NCBI RefSeq assembly: GCF_000277125.1
Contig: NC_016946.1
Span: 2,232,001 to 2,296,000 of the forward strand
Direction: 5' to 3'
DNA from: Mycobacterium intracellulare ATCC 13950
GTDB lineage: Bacteria > Actinomycetota > Actinomycetes > Mycobacteriales > Mycobacteriaceae
Length of the DNA stretch: 64,000 nucleotides
Below the pieces are notes generated by a model. It was not told where the DNA came from, did no database searches, and was given only the letters and a program-made list of their open reading frames with translations. This document shows, one piece after another, positions 4,220-12,112 of this stretch (its first letter is position 1; the number at the start of each line of letters is the position of its first letter). A program made the translations under genes and the position numbers.

Positions 4220-5494
4220 TTACGCGACGGCGACCTGGCGCTGTCGGGCGTAGATCTCGGCGAGGAATTGCTCGACGGCCACCGCGGTGTGCGCGGCGCG
4301 CACCGAGCCGAAGATGTCGAAAGCGTGTTGGGTGAAAGGTAATTCGGCGTAGAGCACCGGCTGCGCGCTGGTTTGACGCAGCTTTTCGACGAAGGTGCGC
4401 GCCTGTTCGACGTAGGCCAGCGAGTCGTTGCGGCCGTGCAGGACGAAGAACGGCGGGGCGTCGGCATGGATGTGGTTGACCGGCGACGCGGTTTCGAACG
4501 TCTGTCGGTGGGTCGCGGGCTTTTGTTTGATGATCGACTTGATCAGCAGTCCGGGCATCATCGGGTGCAGCGACTTGTCGAACCGGGTGAAGTCGTAGAT
4601 GCCGTAGAACGGCACGGCCGCCTGCACGCGGGTGTCGACGTCTTCGAAGCCCGGCTGGAATTGCGGGTCGTTTGGGGTGAGCGCGGCCAGCGACGACAAA
4701 TGGCCGCCGGCCGAGCCGCCGGTGATGGCGATGAAGTCGGGGTCGCCGCCGTACTCGGCGATGTGTTGCTTGACCCAGGCGAGGGCGCGCTTGACGTCGA
4801 CGATGTGGTCGGGCCAGGTATTGCGCGGGCTGTGCCGGTAGTTGATCGCCACGCAGATCCAGCCGAGTTCGGCGAGGTGGCTCATCAGCGGATGCGCTTG
4901 TCCGCGTTTGTTTCCCGTCGTCCAGGCGCCGCCGGGGATCTGGAACAGCACCGGGGCCTTGCCGGCCGGATCGAGGTCGGGGCGCCGCCAGATGTCCAGG
5001 CGGTTGGCGCCGCCGAATTCGCCGTAGCTGATGTTGGAGTCGTGGGCGTAGTCGCGGTAGATCCGCAGCATCCGTAGGAGTCCGGGCGTCTTGGCGGTGC
5101 CGCTGCCGCTCGGCCGGCGCCACAGGCTCGCCGACTCGGTGAGCCGGTCGGCTCCCAGCCCGCTGTCCAACGCCTCGGTCAGCGGCACGTTGGCGCGATG
5201 GCCGGCGCGGCTCAGGTTGAGCAGGCCGAGCGCCGAGAGCCCGGCGACCAACCATGCCGTGATGCGCACGGGCCGCGTCAGGCGCCGTGCCGTCAGGGCC
5301 AGCCCGCCGAGCTGGCTGACCAGCGTCTGCAGCGGCAACTCGGTGACGATGAGCCCGACCATCCACGAGTACAGCGACGGGTAGCCGCCGCGCGCCAGGG
5401 GGCGGTAGGCGTTGAGTGTGGACGCCGCGGTCACCACGGTGACCGCTAGCGACCCGACTTGCCGGGTGAGGTGGATGATTCGAGCTGTCCGCAT
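4220..5494 (-). CDS. lipM: membrane-anchored alpha/beta-hydrolase (LipM-type esterase)
   Basis: A 424-residue alpha/beta hydrolase of the hormone-sensitive-lipase-like group. The first 120 residues contain two or three hydrophobic segments (LAVTVVTAASTLNAYRP; WMVGLIVTELPL; ITAWLVAGLSALGLL), so the enzyme is probably membrane-bound. The catalytic part has an oxyanion loop IPGGAWTTGNK, the nucleophile motif GGSAGGH and late Asp/His (HGRNDS; FTQHAFD). The long N-terminal membrane region matches the mycobacterial LipM/LipQ group, and the neighbouring YjcE-type antiporter is near lipM in M. tuberculosis as well. Substrate unknown, presumably short-chain acyl esters. Confidence 0.8.
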   Translation of the reverse strand: MRTARIIHLTRQVGSLAVTVVTAASTLNAYRPLARGGYPSLYSWMVGLIVTELPLQTLVSQLGGLALTARRLTRPVRITAWLVAGLSALGLLNLSRAGHRANVPLTEALDSGLGADRLTESASLWRRPSGSGTAKTPGLLRMLRIYRDYAHDSNISYGEFGGANRLDIWRRPDLDPAGKAPVLFQIPGGAWTTGNKRGQAHPLMSHLAELGWICVAINYRHSPRNTWPDHIVDVKRALAWVKQHIAEYGGDPDFIAITGGSAGGHLSSLAALTPNDPQFQPGFEDVDTRVQAAVPFYGIYDFTRFDKSLHPMMPGLLIKSIIKQKPATHRQTFETASPVNHIHADAPPFFVLHGRNDSLAYVEQARTFVEKLRQTSAQPVLYAELPFTQHAFDIFGSVRAAHTAVAVEQFLAEIYARQRQVAVA

Positions 5495-5538
5495 TGCCTC
5501 ACCTTACGAAACGGGTGGATTCGTCTCGGATTAGCAGG

Positions 5539-5865
5539 CTACGACGCCTCTGCCCTGCTCTCGAGGTTCTTCACCGGGGCGGGGTCGTTCTCGGTCAGCC
5601 CGACCTTCGCGGCTCCGCCGGGCGAGCCGAGCTCGGCGAAGAAGTCGGCGTTGATCTGCAGGTATCCGCTGTGCTCGTCGGGCAGGTCGTCCTCGTAGAA
5701 GATCGACTCGACCGGGCACACCGGCTCGCAGGCGCCGCAGTCCACGCACTCGTCGGGGTGGATGTAGAGCATCCGGGCGCCCTCGTAGATGCAGTCGACG
5801 GGGCATTCCTCGATGCATGCCTTGTCTTTGATGTCGACGCAGGGTTCGGCGATCACGTAGGCCAC
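5539..5865 (-). CDS. 7Fe ferredoxin (FdxC-like)
   Basis: A 108-residue ferredoxin. The N-terminal 60 residues carry two clusters: the first with CVDIKDKACIEECPVDC spacing (3Fe-4S plus one 4Fe-4S ligand) and the second CVDCGACEPVCP. This is the seven-iron type used as a low-potential carrier to P450s and reductases; the window contains three P450s and a ferredoxin-type sulfite reductase that could accept its electrons. The acidic C-terminal extension is typical of mycobacterial FdxA/FdxC. It lies 44 bases upstream of the hydrolase gene on the same strand. Confidence 0.9.
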   Translation of the reverse strand: MAYVIAEPCVDIKDKACIEECPVDCIYEGARMLYIHPDECVDCGACEPVCPVESIFYEDDLPDEHSGYLQINADFFAELGSPGGAAKVGLTENDPAPVKNLESRAEAS

Positions 5866-6014
5866 GAATGTTGTCCTTCCGTCTGGCTAGCGGGGTCAGC
5901 CGGCTGCGGGCCGCAGCAACTCGGTCAGGCTGGCTAATTTAGCGCGGCGGCATCCGCGCGGCTCACCGGCCCTTTCGGGCGGCAATGTTTCCCATGCTTC
6001 CGGCCCGCGCGGGG

Positions 6015-6059
6015 CGTGAGTAGAGGTTTGGCGTTGTGGTGTCACAAGCTATAGTTGTG
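6015..6059. promoter_or_regulatory. 45-bp composite motif upstream of the LysR gene (copy 1)
   Basis: Ends 30 bases before the LysR start. Structure: CGTnAGTAGAGGT, five bases, GTTGTG, four bases, CACAA, six bases, GTTGTG. The TTGTG-N4-CACAA core (6034-6047) is a perfect inverted repeat. The same arrangement with identical spacing recurs at 9693-9737 with 32 of 45 bases identical. Its position upstream of a LysR gene suggests an autoregulatory LysR box. Confidence 0.65.
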
Positions 6060-6089
6060 GTCACACGATTTGATTGTGAGCGCTGCACC

Positions 6090-7031
6090 ATGCCACTCAG
6101 CCCGCGGCTGCCCGAACTGGCCTCGTTCGAGGCGTTTTTGGCGATCGCCGAGACGGGCAGCCTCGGCCGGGCCGCGCGCGAGCTGGGGCTGACCCAGCAG
6201 GCGATCTCCCGGCGCCTGGCCACCATGGAGGCCCAGATCGGCGTCACCCTGGCCGTCCGGACCACGCGCGGCTCGCAACTGACACCCGCGGGCCTGATCG
6301 TCGCGGACTGGGCGACTCGCCTGCTCGACGTCGCCCACGAGGTCGACGCCGGGCTGGGCTCGCTGCGCAAGGAAGGCCGCGAACGCATCCGGGTGTCGGC
6401 CAGCCAGACGATCTCCGAGCAACTCATGCCGCACTGGTTGCTGTCCCTGCAGGCCGATGCGGCGCGGCGCGGCGACACCGCGCCGCAGGTCATCCTGACC
6501 GCCACCAACAGTGACCACGCGATCGCCTCGGTGCGCGACGGCTCCGCCGACCTCGGGTTCGTCGAAAACCCCGGTACACCAAAGGGTTTGGGCAGCTGCG
6601 TGGTGGGGGAGGACGAGCTGGTGATCGTCGTCCCGCCGGACCATAAGTGGGCCCGACGGTCGCGGATCGTGACCGCGCGCGAACTCGCGCAGACGCCGTT
6701 GGTGTCCCGCGAACTCCATTCCGGCATCCGCGATTCGCTGGCGGCGGCGCTGCGCCAGGTGCTCGGGGAGGACATGCAGCAAGCCGCACCCGTGCTGGAG
6801 TTGACCTCGTCGGCGGCGATGCGCGCCGCCGTCCTGGCCGGCGCGGGCCCGGCGGCGATGAGCCGGCTGGCGGTGGCCGACGACCTGGCGGTCGGGCGTC
6901 TGTACGCGGTCCACATCCCAAAGCTGGATCTGCGCCGCAAGTTTCGGGCCATCTGGGTCGGCGGGCGTACTCCGCCGGCCGGGGCGATCCGCGACCTGTT
7001 GAGTCACATCATCAACCGCACGACGGCGTAG
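6090..7031 (+). CDS. LysR-family transcriptional regulator (Rv2282c-like)
   Basis: A 313-residue LysR-type regulator. Residues about 8-67 form the winged helix-turn-helix (LASFEAFLAIAETGSLGRAARELGLTQQAISRRLATME). The rest is the periplasmic-binding-protein-like co-inducer domain (VSASQTISEQLMP ... SADLGFVENP). The ATG at 6090 (MPLSPRLPEL) is preferred over an in-frame start 54 bases upstream because the family begins at this point and the longer form would overlap the promoter motif. The 45-bp motif shared with the sirA/trxB intergenic region suggests it controls those genes; this link is inference. Confidence 0.88.
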   Translation: MPLSPRLPELASFEAFLAIAETGSLGRAARELGLTQQAISRRLATMEAQIGVTLAVRTTRGSQLTPAGLIVADWATRLLDVAHEVDAGLGSLRKEGRERIRVSASQTISEQLMPHWLLSLQADAARRGDTAPQVILTATNSDHAIASVRDGSADLGFVENPGTPKGLGSCVVGEDELVIVVPPDHKWARRSRIVTARELAQTPLVSRELHSGIRDSLAAALRQVLGEDMQQAAPVLELTSSAAMRAAVLAGAGPAAMSRLAVADDLAVGRLYAVHIPKLDLRRKFRAIWVGGRTPPAGAIRDLLSHIINRTTA

Positions 7032-7039
7032 GACGCTTG

Positions 7040-7100
7040 GCCGAGCGTGGAGTTGTTGCGGCGTCTCCGGGCGTTTTGCCGCAACAACTCGACGTTCGGC
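7040..7100. terminator. bidirectional hairpin between convergent genes
   Basis: A 23-bp stem with one mismatch and one G-U pair surrounds a 15-base loop. The inner 13 bp are perfect: GAGTTGTTGCGGC (7050-7062) and GCCGCAACAACTC (7078-7090). It lies between the LysR stop at 7031 and the end of the convergent chelatase gene at 7134, so it can terminate both transcripts. There is no U-tract, as is common for mycobacterial terminators. Confidence 0.7.
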
Positions 7101-7133
7101 GGGAAGGGAAGGGGCGGCGCGGGCGGGAAAAGC

Positions 7134-7850
7134 TCAGGCCGCGGCGTCGGCGGCCAGCGCCTCGTCGTAGCGGTCGAGGACGGTCTCGGCAACCAGCGGG
7201 TGCGCGCCCAGCGGGGAGGCCATCCGAATGCCGTTGTCGCGGGCGAAGGTTGACACGCCGTCGGTGATGAATCCCGGCGCCAAGAACCACGGCGCGATCA
7301 CCAGCCGGCGCGCGCCGCGGCGGCGCAACTGGTCGGCGGCCCGGGCCACCGACGCCTCGGGCCGGGTGGCGAACGCCGTTGCGGCGCCGGCCCATCGGGT
7401 GCCGGCGGCCAGCCGCGACGCCACCTTCGCGGTGCGGGCATTGGCGGCCAGGTTCGACGAGCCGATCGCGACGACCAGCACCCCGAGGTCGTCGTCGAGG
7501 GGCGACACGCCGATCTCGGTCAGACGCTCGCGCAGGACGGTGACCAGTCGGTCGTCCTCGCCGAGCACGTCGGCCTGCCGGATGCCCTGAGCGCCGGCGT
7601 GGGCGATCTGTTCGGGGATGTCCAGGCGCGCGTGATAAGCGCTGGCCAGCAGCAACGGGGCCACGACGGCGCGGCGGCTGTCGGGCAGGCCGGCCAGCAC
7701 GTCGACGAAGTTCGGGGCGTTGAGCTCGAGGAACGCCAGCCGCACGTCGAGGCCCGGCCGCATCCGCCTCAGGCGGTCGGCCACGGCTTCGGCGTTGGCA
7801 CCCGACCGGGGGTCGCGGCTGCCGTGCGCGGTGAGGACGAGCGTGCTCAC
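7134..7850 (-). CDS. che1: sirohydrochlorin ferrochelatase (Che1-type)
   Basis: A 238-residue CbiX/SirB-type chelatase that inserts Fe2+ into sirohydrochlorin to make sirohaem, the cofactor of the upstream sulfite reductase. The N-terminus shows the metal-binding TAHGSRDPRSGANAEAVADRL motif; a second repeat-like half has VVAIGSSNLAANA and APWFLAPGFITD. Its start overlaps the sirA stop by four bases (ATGA), so the two are translationally coupled. In M. tuberculosis a cysH gene separates these two; here it is absent. Confidence 0.88.
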   Translation of the reverse strand: MSTLVLTAHGSRDPRSGANAEAVADRLRRMRPGLDVRLAFLELNAPNFVDVLAGLPDSRRAVVAPLLLASAYHARLDIPEQIAHAGAQGIRQADVLGEDDRLVTVLRERLTEIGVSPLDDDLGVLVVAIGSSNLAANARTAKVASRLAAGTRWAGAATAFATRPEASVARAADQLRRRGARRLVIAPWFLAPGFITDGVSTFARDNGIRMASPLGAHPLVAETVLDRYDEALAADAAA

Positions 7851-9514
7851 CGCAGGTCGTCCTCCTCGGCGCGCAGCGCCCAGGACGCGAAAGCCTCACC
7901 GCTGTCACGCTTTTCGAGGTACTTGCGGGTCACCCGGTCGATGTAGTCGCCCAGCTCGGCGCTGGTGACCTTGTGCTGGCGCAGTTTTCGGCCGAAGCCG
8001 CTCTGCTCACCCAGGCCGCCGCCCAGGTGCACCTGGAAGCCCTCGACCGAATTGCCGTCACCGTCGTCGATCCACTGGCCCTTGAACCCGATGTCGGCGA
8101 CCTGGATTCGGGCGCACGAGTTCGGGCAGCCGTTGAGGTGCACGCTGATCGGCGCGTCCAGCCGCGACTCGACGTCGGCCAGGCGCTGCTCGAGCTCGGG
8201 CACCAAAGTCTGGGTGCGGACCCGGGTTTCGGCGAACGACAGCTTGCAGTACTCAATCCCGGTGCACGCCATGGTGTTCTTGCGCCACGACGACGGCCGC
8301 GACGGCAACCCGAGCGCGTCCAGCCCCGCCACCAGTTCGTCGACCTTGTCGTCGGCGACGTCGAGGATGACCAGCTTTTGGAACGGGGTCCATCGCGCCC
8401 GGTCGGAGCCGGCCTTTTCCATCAGGTCGGCCACGGCCGACAGGGTGCTGCCCGACACGCGTCCGGCGATCGGCGCGACGCCAACGGCGTTGAGGCCGTT
8501 CTTGATTCGCTGCACGCCGACGTGGTCGATGGTGTGCTTGACGGGCGTGGGGGCCGGGCCGTCGATTAGCCGGCGGTTGAGGTATTCCTCTTCGAGGACT
8601 TCGCGGAATTTCTCGACGCCCCAGTCCTTGACCAAGAACTTCAACCGGGCCTTGGCGCGCAGCCGGCGGTAGCCGTAGTCGCGGAACAGCTGGGTGACGG
8701 CCTCCCAGACGTCGGGCACCTCGTTCAGCGGAACCCAGACGCCGAGCCGCTGGGCCAGCATCGGGTTGGTCGACAGGCCGCCGCCCACCCACAGGTCCAG
8801 GCCGGGGCCGTGTTCGGGGTGGTGGACGCCGACGAACGCGATGTCGTGCGTTTCGTGGGAGACGTCCTGCAGACCGGAGACCGCGGTCTTGTACTTGCGC
8901 GGCAGGTTGGCGTACTCGGGGTTGTTCAGCGAGCGGCGGACGATCTCGTCGATCGCGGCCGACGGGTCGAGCACCTCGTCGAGCGAGTCGCCGGCCAGCG
9001 GCGAACCGTGGATGCCGCGCGGGCAGTCGCCGCAGGCCTCGGTGGTCTGCAGCCCGACGGAGTCGAGGCGCCGCCAGATCTCGGGGACGTCCTCGATGCG
9101 GACCCAGTGCAGTTGGAGGTTTTCGCGGTCGCTGATGTCGGCGGTGTCGCGGGCGAATTCGGTCGAAATCTGGCCCAGCGTGCGCATCGTGTGCGCCGTC
9201 ATCGCCTTGCCGTCCGAGCGGACCCGCATCATGAAGTACTTGGCTTCGATCTTGTCGGTGTTCTCGTCGCCGGTCCAGCTGCCGTCGTAGCCCTGCTCGC
9301 GCTGGGTGTAGAGGCCCATCCAGCGGAACCGTCCGCGCAGGTCGGACTTGTCGATGCTGTCGAAGCCCTGCTTGGAGTAGACGTTGATGATGCGGTCGCG
9401 GACGTTCAGCGGACCGTCGTCGTTCTTGATCTTCTCGGTGTCGTTGAGGGGTTCGCGATCCCCCAGCGCCCACTGACCCTCGTTGCGGGTCTTGACGGGA
9501 CGTGCGGTGGTCAT
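7847..9514 (-). CDS. sirA: ferredoxin-dependent sulfite reductase SirA
   Basis: A 555-residue assimilatory sulfite reductase that reduces sulfite to sulfide with six ferredoxin electrons. The sirohaem/4Fe-4S ligands are visible near the C-terminus (CTGIEYC and NGCPNSCAR). Tyr69 and Cys161 (TTEACGDC), which form a covalent cross-link in the M. tuberculosis enzyme, are both conserved. The length matches that enzyme, and the C-terminus RAEEDDLR is intact, so the short overlap with the chelatase gene does not truncate it. The start has a GGAGCAA ribosome site. Its promoter region carries the 45-bp motif about 180 bases upstream. Confidence 0.95.
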   Translation of the reverse strand: MTTARPVKTRNEGQWALGDREPLNDTEKIKNDDGPLNVRDRIINVYSKQGFDSIDKSDLRGRFRWMGLYTQREQGYDGSWTGDENTDKIEAKYFMMRVRSDGKAMTAHTMRTLGQISTEFARDTADISDRENLQLHWVRIEDVPEIWRRLDSVGLQTTEACGDCPRGIHGSPLAGDSLDEVLDPSAAIDEIVRRSLNNPEYANLPRKYKTAVSGLQDVSHETHDIAFVGVHHPEHGPGLDLWVGGGLSTNPMLAQRLGVWVPLNEVPDVWEAVTQLFRDYGYRRLRAKARLKFLVKDWGVEKFREVLEEEYLNRRLIDGPAPTPVKHTIDHVGVQRIKNGLNAVGVAPIAGRVSGSTLSAVADLMEKAGSDRARWTPFQKLVILDVADDKVDELVAGLDALGLPSRPSSWRKNTMACTGIEYCKLSFAETRVRTQTLVPELEQRLADVESRLDAPISVHLNGCPNSCARIQVADIGFKGQWIDDGDGNSVEGFQVHLGGGLGEQSGFGRKLRQHKVTSAELGDYIDRVTRKYLEKRDSGEAFASWALRAEEDDLR

Positions 9515-9805
9515 ATGCGTTGCTCCTTCGCGAACTTCGTCGCGGCGGCTCAGATTGGCGGCGTGCGGCCGGAGGCGGGCTGCGGGCCTTCTCGGCTACC
9601 GGGCATTCGCGATGATGTTGGGTCTGTGGGCACCCGCAGGTTCGTCATTGGACCCACGGGGCGCGATTTCCATAGTGCACGAGTCGCGCCGGCGTCAGTA
9701 GAGGTCACATGTTGTGAGGGCACAACCTCGCGTTGTGTGCGCCGCTTCACGGCGTTGCGTTGACGGCCAGAGGGATTGGCCGGACTCACAGTAGTGTGGC
9801 CGCTT
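9515..9805. promoter_or_regulatory. divergent sirA/trxB promoter region
   Basis: 291 bases between the sirA start (minus strand) and the thioredoxin reductase start (plus strand). It contains the second copy of the 45-bp motif. Reading the sirA leader in all three frames gives only short frames such as MTNLRVPTDP... and a leader with no run of cysteine codons, so the polycysteine attenuator peptide known from other mycobacterial sulfur operons is not visible here. Confidence 0.5.
9693..9737. promoter_or_regulatory. 45-bp composite motif in sirA/trxB promoter (copy 2)
   Basis: Same structure and spacing as the copy at 6015-6059: CGTnAGTAGAGGT, N5, GTTGTG, N4, CACAA, N6, GTTGTG. The core TTGTG-N4-CACAA is at 9712-9725. 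It is 69 bases before the trxB ATG and about 180 bases before the sirA ATG, so it could control either or both. Likely a binding site of the LysR protein encoded at 6090 (inference). Confidence 0.65.
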
Positions 9806-10798
9806 ATGAGCTCCTCCGACATCCATGACGTGATCATTATTGGTTCGGGTCCTGCTGGGTATACCGCGGCGTTGTATGCGGCGCGGGCGCAGTTGGCGCC
9901 GGTGGTGTTTGAGGGGACGTCGTTTGGTGGGGCGTTGATGACGACGACCGAGGTGGAGAACTACCCGGGTTTTCGCGACGGGATCATGGGTCCGGAGTTG
10001 ATGGATCAGATGCGTGAGCAGGCGTTGCGGTTTGGTGCTGATCTGCGGATGGAAGACGTCGAATCGGTGTCGCTGGAGGGTGCGGTGAAGTCGGTGACCA
10101 CCAGCGAGGGGGACACCGTGCGCGGACGGGCGGTGATTTTGGCGATGGGTGCGGCGGCCCGGTATTTGGGGGTGCCCGGGGAGCAGGAGTTGCTGGGGCG
10201 TGGGGTGAGCTCGTGTGCGACCTGTGATGGGTTCTTTTTCAAGGATCAAGACATCGCGGTGATCGGTGGTGGGGATTCGGCGATGGAGGAGGCCACGTTT
10301 TTGACCCGGTTTGCCCGCAGTGTGACGTTGGTGCATCGCCGTGAGGAGTTCCGGGCGTCGCGGATCATGTTGGAGCGGGCCCGGGCCAACGACAAGATCA
10401 CCTTCCTGACCAATAAGGCGGTTGAGGCGGTCGAGGGTGCCGAGACGGTGACGGGGTTGCGGTTGCGTGACACGGTGAGCGGTGCGGAGTCGACGTTGGC
10501 GGTGAGCGGGGTGTTCGTGGCGATCGGGCATGACCCGCGTTCGGAGTTGGTGCGCGAGGTGCTCGAGACCGACGCGGACGGGTATGTGTTGGTGCGTGGC
10601 CGCACCACCAGTACCTCGATCGAGGGGGTGTTCGCCGCCGGGGATCTGGTGGATCGCACCTACCGCCAAGCCGTGACCGCCGCCGGCAGCGGCTGTTCGG
10701 CCGCCATCGACGCCGAACGCTGGCTCGCCGACCACGAGGAAACCGACGTGGACGCGTCCGTGACGCCGGCTATCGGTCGAGAACCGTTGCGTAACTGA
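9806..10798 (+). CDS. thioredoxin reductase (TrxB2-like)
   Basis: A 330-residue FAD/NADPH thioredoxin reductase that regenerates thioredoxin. FAD-binding [16 protein letters not shown] is at residues about 13-28, the redox-active CATC in [10 protein letters not shown], the NADPH-binding [10 protein letters not shown], and the second FAD motif [10 protein letters not shown] near the end. The body closely matches mycobacterial TrxB2, but there is no trxC thioredoxin gene beside it, unlike the oriC-proximal trxB2-trxC pair, so this may be a second copy. Codon third positions are G/T-rich over the first 800 bases and switch to C-rich in the last 180. It ends 3 bases before the convergent P450. 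Confidence 0.92.
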
Positions 10799-10801
10799 GG
10801 T

Positions 10802-12112
10802 TTAGACGGGAAGTTTGGCGGAAGTCGTTCTGCGACCGCCGAGTTGGGCCGGCAGCCTGGTGTATCCGTGCAAGTTGATCAGCCTTCGCGGTTGTGGGGG
10901 AGCCGTCAGGCGCAGATCGGGAAAACTCTCGAATAGTGCGCGCAGGGCGGTCGTTCCCTCGATGCGGGCCAGGGCGGCACCGAGGCAGGCGTGGATGCCG
11001 GACGCGAACGCGAGGTGGTCGCGCGCGTTGGCCCGGGTGATATCGAAAGTCGTTGGATCGATGAACACCTTCGGGTCGCGGTTGGCGCCGCCGAGGAACA
11101 GTCCGACCATGTCGCCCGACGCGATGTGGGCCCCGGCGATTTCGACGTCGCAGTTCGGGGTGCGCGCGGTCATCTGAACCGGACTGGCGAACCGCAGGAT
11201 CTCCTCGACCGCGGAGGGCCAAAGGTCCGGATTGTCGTGCAGCAGCGCCAACTGCTCGGGGTGCTGCAGCAACAGCACGATGCCGTTGCCGATCAGGTTC
11301 ACCGTCGTCTCGAAGCCCGCGCCGACGATCAGCGCGGCGTTGGCGGTGAGTTCGCGATCGGTCAGCGAGCCGTCGGCGGCCATGCGGCCGAACGGATTGT
11401 CGCTCTTCTGGCCGGCGCGCAGTCTGTGGAGGTGCTCGAGCAGGTAATCGTCGGCGCCGCGCAGCCCGTCGATGGCGTCGCGGTAGGTCTTCCAGTCGAT
11501 CCCGATATCCAGCAACGGGGAACCGCTGCGGCCCCACCCCAGCATGCGCGGATACGAATCAGGCGGCAGGTCAAGGATTTCGGCGATAATAGCGACCGGC
11601 AGTTGCATCGCGAAGTCGGCGATCAAATCGGGCGGCGGTGTGGCGGCGATGCGCTCGATCAACTCCATCGTCACTTCGGCGACCCGGGTGTCCAGTGAGT
11701 CGATCGCGCGCGGGGTGAAGCTTTGTGCCACCAGTTGCCGGTAGCGGGTGTGATCGGGCGGATTCACGATCACCATCGCGGGTGGTTCGACCGGGTTGGC
11801 CACGCCGGGGTCGGTTTTGGCGATGAGCGCCTTCAGCGGGCGGGGCAATTCCATCTCGCTGGGCGCGGTGACACCAAAGCGCTTGTCCCGCAGAATTTGT
11901 CGACACACGGCATGGTCGACACTGGCCCACACGTACGGGGAGCGCACCACGGGTCCGCGCGCCCGGATCTGCTCCATCAGGGCATAGCGGTCATCGGCCG
12001 TTCCGCTGCGCAGCAGCCGCGCCAGGGGGTCGCCGCGGCGGGCCTGAACGGCGAAGTACGCCCGCGGCACGCCGTGCATGGCCGCCCACCGGGCCCTGAG
12101 TCCGACACGCAT
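10802..12112 (-). CDS. cytochrome P450 (CYP140-like)
   Basis: A 436-residue soluble bacterial P450. The I-helix oxygen-binding region is IVGAGFETTVNL, the K-helix ExxR is EEILR, and the haem thiolate loop is FASGIHACLGAALAR. The N-terminus (WAAMHGVPRAYF...RRGDPLARL) and the run GFETTVNLIGNGI resemble M. tuberculosis CYP140A1 (Rv1880c); assignment to that family is tentative. Electrons would come from a ferredoxin such as the one at 5539-5865. It is divergent from the TetR gene at 12233 and probably controlled by it. Substrate unknown. Confidence 0.88.
   Translation of the reverse strand: MRVGLRARWAAMHGVPRAYFAVQARRGDPLARLLRSGTADDRYALMEQIRARGPVVRSPYVWASVDHAVCRQILRDKRFGVTAPSEMELPRPLKALIAKTDPGVANPVEPPAMVIVNPPDHTRYRQLVAQSFTPRAIDSLDTRVAEVTMELIERIAATPPPDLIADFAMQLPVAIIAEILDLPPDSYPRMLGWGRSGSPLLDIGIDWKTYRDAIDGLRGADDYLLEHLHRLRAGQKSDNPFGRMAADGSLTDRELTANAALIVGAGFETTVNLIGNGIVLLLQHPEQLALLHDNPDLWPSAVEEILRFASPVQMTARTPNCDVEIAGAHIASGDMVGLFLGGANRDPKVFIDPTTFDITRANARDHLAFASGIHACLGAALARIEGTTALRALFESFPDLRLTAPPQPRRLINLHGYTRLPAQLGGRRTTSAKLPV

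Follow-up and report, generated by a model that had tools for sequence, protein, structure and literature searches.

The 64,000-nucleotide stretch of the Mycobacterium intracellulare ATCC 13950 genome analysed here (NC_016946.1, positions 2,232,001 to 2,296,000; referred to below as the window) contains a gene for a LysR-type transcriptional regulator, lysR, located between the ferredoxin gene fdxC and the sirA-sirB genes for a ferredoxin-dependent sulfite reductase and a sirohydrochlorin chelatase. A composite motif in front of both lysR and sirA is probably the operator of the adjoining LysR protein, which would act as an activator with sulfite as its effector and would serve lysR, fdxC and sirA-sirB plus the distant pntAa-pntAb genes. 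An initial annotation, made from the sequence alone, had noticed the motif and predicted a small regulon in which LysR controls its own gene and sulfite and/or thiol reduction, the latter via the thioredoxin reductase gene trxB beyond sirA. A small regulon with a LysR-linked site over the lysR promoter and sulfite reduction at its centre is supported by the data below; control of trxB is not supported, and fdxC (in some relatives also the ferredoxin-NADP reductase gene fprA) and likely pntA join as targets that had been missed.

The two 45-bp copies, at 6015-6059 and 9693-9737, are identical at 32 of 45 bases and carry the elements and spacing first described, including the end of copy 1 30 bases 5' of the lysR ATG (6090). 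The best other 45-mer in the window matches copy 1 at 27 of 45 bases. A genome-wide scan was run with the 20-base pattern AGTAGAGGT-N5-GTTGTG-N4-CACAA: at up to three mismatches, the genome of 5,402,402 bases contains only these two sites, both with 0 mismatches, while the reversed pattern gives 0 matches and base composition alone predicts about 1e-6 exact ones. Extended to relatives at the same threshold, the scan covered 297 genomes of the genus, this one among them, and found matches in 24, namely a pair 3.5-3.7 kb apart with 0-1 mismatch in 15, a single site with 0 mismatches in two and a single site with 2-3 mismatches in seven. Comparison of relatives defined the core unit as a 26-bp operator, TTGTG-N4-CACAA-N7-TTGTG, whose exact matches in the genome are limited to the two window sites (expectation 0.0012). 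Searches with the LysR protein yielded 58 named loci, 35 of which have lysR beside sirA. The window brings the number of sites to 36 on each side, and 35 on each were tabulated, the lysR-side table leaving out L061 (operator further upstream) and the sirA-side table L058 (near the edge of the scanned region, core exact). The dyad TTGTG-N4-CACAA is exact at 34/35 tabulated lysR-side loci and at 35/35 sirA-side loci. None of the 35 sites on either side lacks the third TTGTG at its position.

The operator follows the regulator across the genus. It occurs in exact form in 88 of the 297 genomes, comprising 87 of the 113 with LysR (E 1e-60 or better) and one of the 184 without, G294, which is 74% complete; the reversed operator is found in 4/113 and 4/184, respectively. 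The operator thus very likely belongs to the neighbouring LysR, as judged from this co-occurrence.

On the minus strand, AGTAGAGGT represents the promoter-proximal box of minus-strand genes: both copies lead into ACCTCTACT, after which come a 19-base spacer and a hexamer whose second base is A and whose sixth is T. The box is separated from the dyad by 5 or 6 bases in the tabulated loci, and an A2/T6 hexamer 19 nucleotides (nt) from the box is present at 31/35 loci on the fdxC side and 34/35 on the sirA side, compared with a background of 2.4%. At 26 of the 35 lysR-side loci, a start codon follows 6-8 nt past the hexamer; six of these codons begin FdxC (L046, L050-L052, L054, L081), seven FprA (L053, L055-L057, L059, L060, L062) and 13 short frames. 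Leaderless mycobacterial promoters have their start codon at such a short distance, and this proximity to the hexamer assigns operator 1 to fdxC or fprA-fdxC, while the matching promoter layout assigns operator 2 to sirA. On the fdxC side of the window no start codon lies 6-8 nt past the hexamer, and fdxC starts about 120 bases further. If the transcripts begin about 7 bases past the hexamer, for which the leaderless loci speak, the dyad centre would fall at about -55, the third half-site at about -73 and the box between -41 and -33. In LysR activators the recognition site usually lies upstream and the activation site beside the -35 region, and the layout predicted here is close to that. On the plus strand, operator 1 covers TATAGT (6050-6055), the likely lysR -10, which appears as TATNGT in 31/35 tabulated loci. 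This overlap suggests autorepression, and lysR is probably repressed by its own product.

The 13 short frames (6-29 codons) begin 7 nt past the fdxC-side -10 in L034-L036, L038, L039, L043, L044, L047-L049, L063, L064 and L074, and are possibly remnants of fprA loss upstream of lysR. In the sirA leader of about 150 nt (9515-9665), inverted GGACCCACGG-like repeats common to close relatives were noted by eye; a second layer of control is a possible role for them.

A third site lies about 3 Mb from lysR, at 5,203,628-5,203,653, upstream of the NAD(P) transhydrogenase genes pntAa-pntAb. It differs from the operator by one mismatch in the third half-site and has the matching box, 19-nt spacer and -10. 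Since loose matches are weak by themselves, this site rests on conservation: an operator with up to two mismatches precedes pntA in 21 of 28 sirA-group genomes, in 0/12 genomes with only the other LysR type and in 0/20 without LysR (Fisher 1.5e-10; Fisher values here ignore kinship), and the remaining 39 pntA upstream regions have best matches at 5-6 mismatches. The 28 genomes were drawn from 49 in the sirA group; the other 21 comprise 13 (own included) that had previously shown a site, seven with an exact pntA site and G047, which has no close pntA. The pntAa-pntAb genes are, on this pattern, very likely a third target.

SirA matches the solved mycobacterial NirA (1zj8) over its full length, as expected of a ferredoxin-dependent enzyme of the SirA/NirA type, and the start of sirB overlaps the end of sirA, so that both probably form one operon. 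The genome contains a second, 76% identical SirA gene (1,937,709-1,939,370), which adjoins cysH, and the 4.7-kb stretch around this copy has no operator dyad. A LysR of at least 74% identity is found in 49 of the 297 genomes, and 46 of these 49 have at least two SirA proteins, compared with 2 of the other 248. In its fullest form (11 loci, one fetched twice), the locus has lysR placed between fdxC-fprA and sirB-cysH-sirA, and a divergent fprA adjoins lysR at 14 loci of the sirA group (one fetched twice); the window locus has neither fprA nor cysH. Sulfur auxotrophy from cysH loss in the window operon was ruled out, the genome having two PF01507 proteins and a cysH beside the other sirA. In most sirA-linked relatives fdxC stands beside lysR (it is absent in L058); its product has paralogues of 84, 73 and 71% identity in the same genome, and the L057 FprA scores 744 bits against the solved FprA (1lqt). 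In M. lepraemurium (L045, 6477-6800), fdxC is just 63% identical and the box degenerate, which decay could explain.

Published RNA sequencing of M. intracellulare under acid and peroxide stress reports 48 genes changed in both conditions, 46 of them upward (PMC11022373). Matched by name and number to the window order fdxC, lysR, sirB, sirA, these include OCU_21470 (fdxC_1; 2.93-fold in acid, 4.78-fold in peroxide), OCU_21490 ('secreted protein', sirB by position; 9.86 and 4.60) and OCU_21500 (nirA_1; 13.48 and 5.64) (PMC11022373). The corresponding values for the cysH-linked genes are 2.27 and -1.05 for cysH (OCU_18650) and 2.45 and -1.03 for its neighbour OCU_18660 (PMC11022373). The data fit a co-control of fdxC and sirA-sirB.

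The LysR protein combines the N-terminal HTH_1 and C-terminal substrate-binding domains of its family. When the effector domain is searched alone, the best solved matches are structures of the sulfite sensor YeiE (8sbh, 7erp, 7fdf). Residues A104, S105, T107, E159, R207 and G212 show no variation across an alignment of 29 sequences, and the first four align with YeiE, the residue at E159 differing between entries 7erp and 7fdf; with regard to a role in sulfite sensing, this alignment is suggestive only. Operator 1 (6034-6059), lying over TATAGT and facing fdxC, gives by sequence the combination of own-promoter and divergent-target site known from YeiE and FinR. The arrangement of FinR with fprA is absent from the window, where fdxC alone is divergent, and is found in the 14 sirA-group loci mentioned above. 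LysR is probably a YeiE/FinR-like activator that senses sulfite.

Sulfite also links the more distant members of the family. Many LysR relatives at 56-70% identity adjoin a SLAC1/TDT transporter, a sulfite oxidase or an uncharacterised flavoprotein. After duplicate LysR sequences had been dropped, the exact TTGTG-N4-CACAA dyad was found upstream of SirA at 37/37 distinct LysR loci, of FprA at 12/13 and of FdxC at 26/39, and likewise upstream of TDT (17/24), sulfite oxidase-like (10/13) and flavoprotein genes (5/21, or 18/21 at up to one mismatch), compared with 3.8% of 2,340 windows drawn at random from these loci. In the relatives' upstream sequences, operator, box, spacer and -10 follow one another as in the window, as judged by eye. 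On a tree of 113 distinct LysR sequences (stop-containing, short and identical ones dropped), the linkage labels sirA/fprA/fdxC (40), TDT (22), flavoprotein (21), sulfite oxidase (10) and none (20) require 9 changes, compared with 63.6 in shuffles. PF00174 and PF03404 are present in 4/4 scanned sulfite oxidase neighbours, one of which matches PDB 2a9d (E 5.5e-82), their best NCBIfam score being 226 bits for SorA, below the cutoff of 600. The transporters belong to the SLAC1 family (PF03595 in 3/3 scanned); a PDB sequence search with a TDT protein gave 0 matches, and sulfite is their presumed substrate. Among the 20 best-scoring loci outside the genus, taken from the rest of the order, TDT adjoins LysR in 16, one of which also has a sulfite oxidase. 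The theme common to reductase, oxidase and exporter is sulfite.

Behind the LysR operator of L117 (5138-6232) and its relatives stands the flavoprotein, an uncharacterised FAD/NAD(P) oxidoreductase whose lone NCBIfam match reaches 24.5 bits (cutoff 343). In one genome (G224; L196, 3034), an exact operator precedes what appears by eye to be a cytochrome oxidase subunit I-like gene. Three loci with LysR at 58-60% identity (L075-L077) have a different palindrome, GATACAAG-N5-CTTGTATC, before lysR, and in L076 an AdhE-like gene follows.

According to the proposed mechanism, LysR would occupy TTGTG-N4-CACAA and the third half-site at the minus-strand targets, about 55 bases ahead of where the transcript begins, and would activate transcription by contacting the ACCTCTACT box beside the -35 region, while at operator 1 it would repress lysR by covering its -10. 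Sulfite would be the most likely effector. The response would raise a second, dedicated chain for sulfite reduction, in which PntAB may supply reduced nicotinamide adenine dinucleotide phosphate (NADPH), from which electrons would pass via FprA, where present, and FdxC to SirA, with siroheme provided through SirB. A broader and more tentative proposal is that a sulfite-sensing LysR lineage kept one cassette (operator, box, spacer of about 19 nt, -10 and often a leaderless start) while the enzymes behind it were swapped: a second NADPH-PntAB-FprA-FdxC-SirA reduction chain, oxidation, export or a new sulfite-handling flavoprotein. The precise operator, the promoter layout and the short target list are now available for direct testing. 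They offer a possible reason why these species have two sulfite reductases, the second of them equipped with a ferredoxin of its own, would set sulfite handling apart from cysteine supply and make the uncharacterised flavoprotein a candidate sulfite enzyme.

Several observations weigh against this assignment. The exact operator is missing in 26 of the 113 LysR genomes and present at just one of the 20 loci outside the genus, and the pntA site is missing in 7 of the 28 sirA-group genomes. At up to two mismatches, the operator has 6 matches in the genome and the reversed control 24, so loose matches alone are meaningless. The box has at least two mismatches in 8 of the 35 lysR-side rows, yet a divergent fdxC or fprA gene persists in seven of them, L058 being the sole row without one. 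With respect to the protein, LysR scores 138.1 bits against the NCBIfam YeiE model NF040889 (cutoff 480), for which reason it is named YeiE-like and not YeiE; the selenium-associated LysR model NF040786 scores higher (151.9 bits, cutoff 250), and among solved structures the full-length protein matches 8sbf and OxyR chains best, YeiE coming sixth. In the RNA sequencing study, the stresses were acid and peroxide, not sulfite, and the gene tags were matched by order and name; its two-stress table contains neither OCU_21480 (lysR by order) nor pntA, and its main text, as available, makes no mention of pntA or a transhydrogenase (PMC11022373).

The same expression data bear on the nature of the signal. 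With regulator, operator and targets unchanged, the effector could be an oxidant, a cysteine precursor or another sulfur species, as in a FinR-like redox-stress switch. The induction of fdxC_1, OCU_21490 and nirA_1 by both peroxide and acid (PMC11022373) and the description of P. aeruginosa FinR as responsive to paraquat and hypochlorite are in line with an oxidant, whereas sulfite, and not peroxide, is what the sulfite oxidase and SLAC1/TDT neighbours of the LysR relatives would have in common, given the presumed transporter substrate. The cysH-linked genes are unchanged in peroxide (PMC11022373), which counts against a general cysteine-demand signal. A signal other than sulfite is therefore regarded as unlikely, though a serious competitor. 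Control of trxB in addition to sirA by the site between them is considerably less probable. The window and 4 of the 22 relatives whose contigs extend at least 1.3 kb past sirA have trxB divergent from sirA (13 further relatives, with contigs ending earlier, are outside this count), but the operator is kept in the 18 informative relatives without trxB, and the window trxB has a 97% identical counterpart elsewhere in the genome. The promoter layout found points to sirA, the trxB side having had no equivalent search, and the two-stress table, as available, lists no trxB (PMC11022373). Of the control of sulfite and/or thiol reduction initially predicted, the sulfite part is supported, with a LysR-linked site at sirA-sirB, and the trxB part is not.

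It is also hardly probable that another regulator binds the dyad, with LysR a mere neighbour. The TTGTG and CACAA half-sites loosely resemble those of CRP-like proteins, but the operator tracks the LysR gene across the genus and, among the genomes tested, the distant pntA site was found solely in those with a sirA-group LysR. That the two copies merely go back to a recently duplicated intergenic segment and have no role in regulation can practically be dismissed: they lie 3.7 kb apart with 32/45 bases in common, but each keeps its own flanking signature over the 35 tabulated loci amid otherwise diverging sequence, and further copies precede unrelated genes in other lineages. The preferred reading remains a YeiE/FinR-like LysR acting on a small set of sulfite-reduction genes, the components of which in the window are listed in Table 1.

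Table 1. Genes and predicted regulatory elements of the lysR-sirA region, in window coordinates
Feature	Position	Strand	Evidence
fdxC, 7Fe ferredoxin, divergent target of operator 1	5539..5865	-	NCBIfam FdxA_Actino 178 bits, cutoff 125
Predicted -10 (AAGCAT), fdxC promoter, 19 nt from box	5994..5999	-	A2/T6 in 31/35 loci
Promoter-proximal box, ACCTCTACT on minus strand	6019..6027	-	at least 2 mismatches in 8/35 lysR-side rows
Operator 1, TTGTG-N4-CACAA-N7-TTGTG, between fdxC and lysR	6034..6059	.	relatives; dyad exact in 34/35 tabulated loci
Predicted lysR -10 (TATAGT), inside operator 1	6050..6055	+	TATNGT in 31/35; putative role in autorepression
Extra repeat TCACA-N9-TGTGA, between operator 1 and lysR	6061..6079	.	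kept in close relatives (upstream sequences)
lysR, LysR-type regulator, 313 aa	6090..7031	+	PF00126 69.6 bits, PF03466 120.1 bits
sirB, CbiX-type sirohydrochlorin chelatase	7134..7850	-	PF01903
sirA, ferredoxin-dependent sulfite reductase, LysR-linked paralogue	7847..9514	-	PDB 1zj8 (NirA) 1013 bits, residues 2-554
Predicted -10 (CACTAT), sirA promoter	9672..9677	-	A2/T6 in 34/35 loci
Promoter-proximal box, sirA promoter	9697..9705	-	comparison of relatives
Operator 2, TTGTG-N4-CACAA-N7-TTGTG, upstream of sirA	9712..9737	.	dyad exact in 35/35 tabulated loci; 37/37 distinct SirA loci

Beyond sirA, the window trxB (9806-10798) encodes a protein 97% identical to that of a second copy at C1:5392643-5393590. 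The ending of contigs within 1.3 kb past sirA in 13 of 35 relatives could be explained by an assembly repeat. A search of positions 5000-11000 for known RNA elements returned only two sub-threshold matches to the Mycobacterium small RNA Ms_IGR-8, located within 7029-7110 in the lysR-sirB gap, one per strand (best 28.3 bits, gathering threshold 44).

The nearest relative of this system within mycobacteria is the cysH-sirA locus, which encodes the same enzyme family and is kept in the same genome, but lacks the operator dyad in its 4.7-kb surroundings and is flat in peroxide (PMC11022373). The sense that no such regulon had been described holds for mycobacteria, no description being found among the matches listed from titles and abstract beginnings in the open-access literature, with subscription papers mostly outside; it does not hold elsewhere, where sulfite-linked LysR proteins are known (YeiE, FinR and CysL). 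CysL of Bacillus subtilis is a LysR activator of the sulfite reductase operon and thereby resembles the protein described here, whereas its target, by description, is the NADPH-type cysJI. According to the available part of a 2011 review, no comparable transcriptional regulator of sulfur assimilation had by then been identified in a mycobacterium (PMC3141025).

In Cronobacter and Salmonella, the LysR-type protein YeiE is reported to bind sulfite, to activate sulfite reduction genes, to repress its own gene and to control the divergent yeiH (PMC12880088). The window LysR shares the family and has YeiE as top solved match to its effector domain alone, but scores under the NCBIfam cutoff for YeiE, and its predicted targets are the ferredoxin-dependent SirA, FdxC/FprA and PntA. 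The Pseudomonas finR gene is divergent from fprA, which is activated from one box located within the finR promoter (PMC5302815), and sulfite is said to alter which DNA is bound by FinR (PMC12880088). This resembles the sirA-group loci with a divergent fprA, but the FinR box has a different sequence, the window locus lacks fprA, and no linked sulfite reductase is mentioned for FinR in the available text (PMC5302815). Other phyla are known to have regulators of this type.

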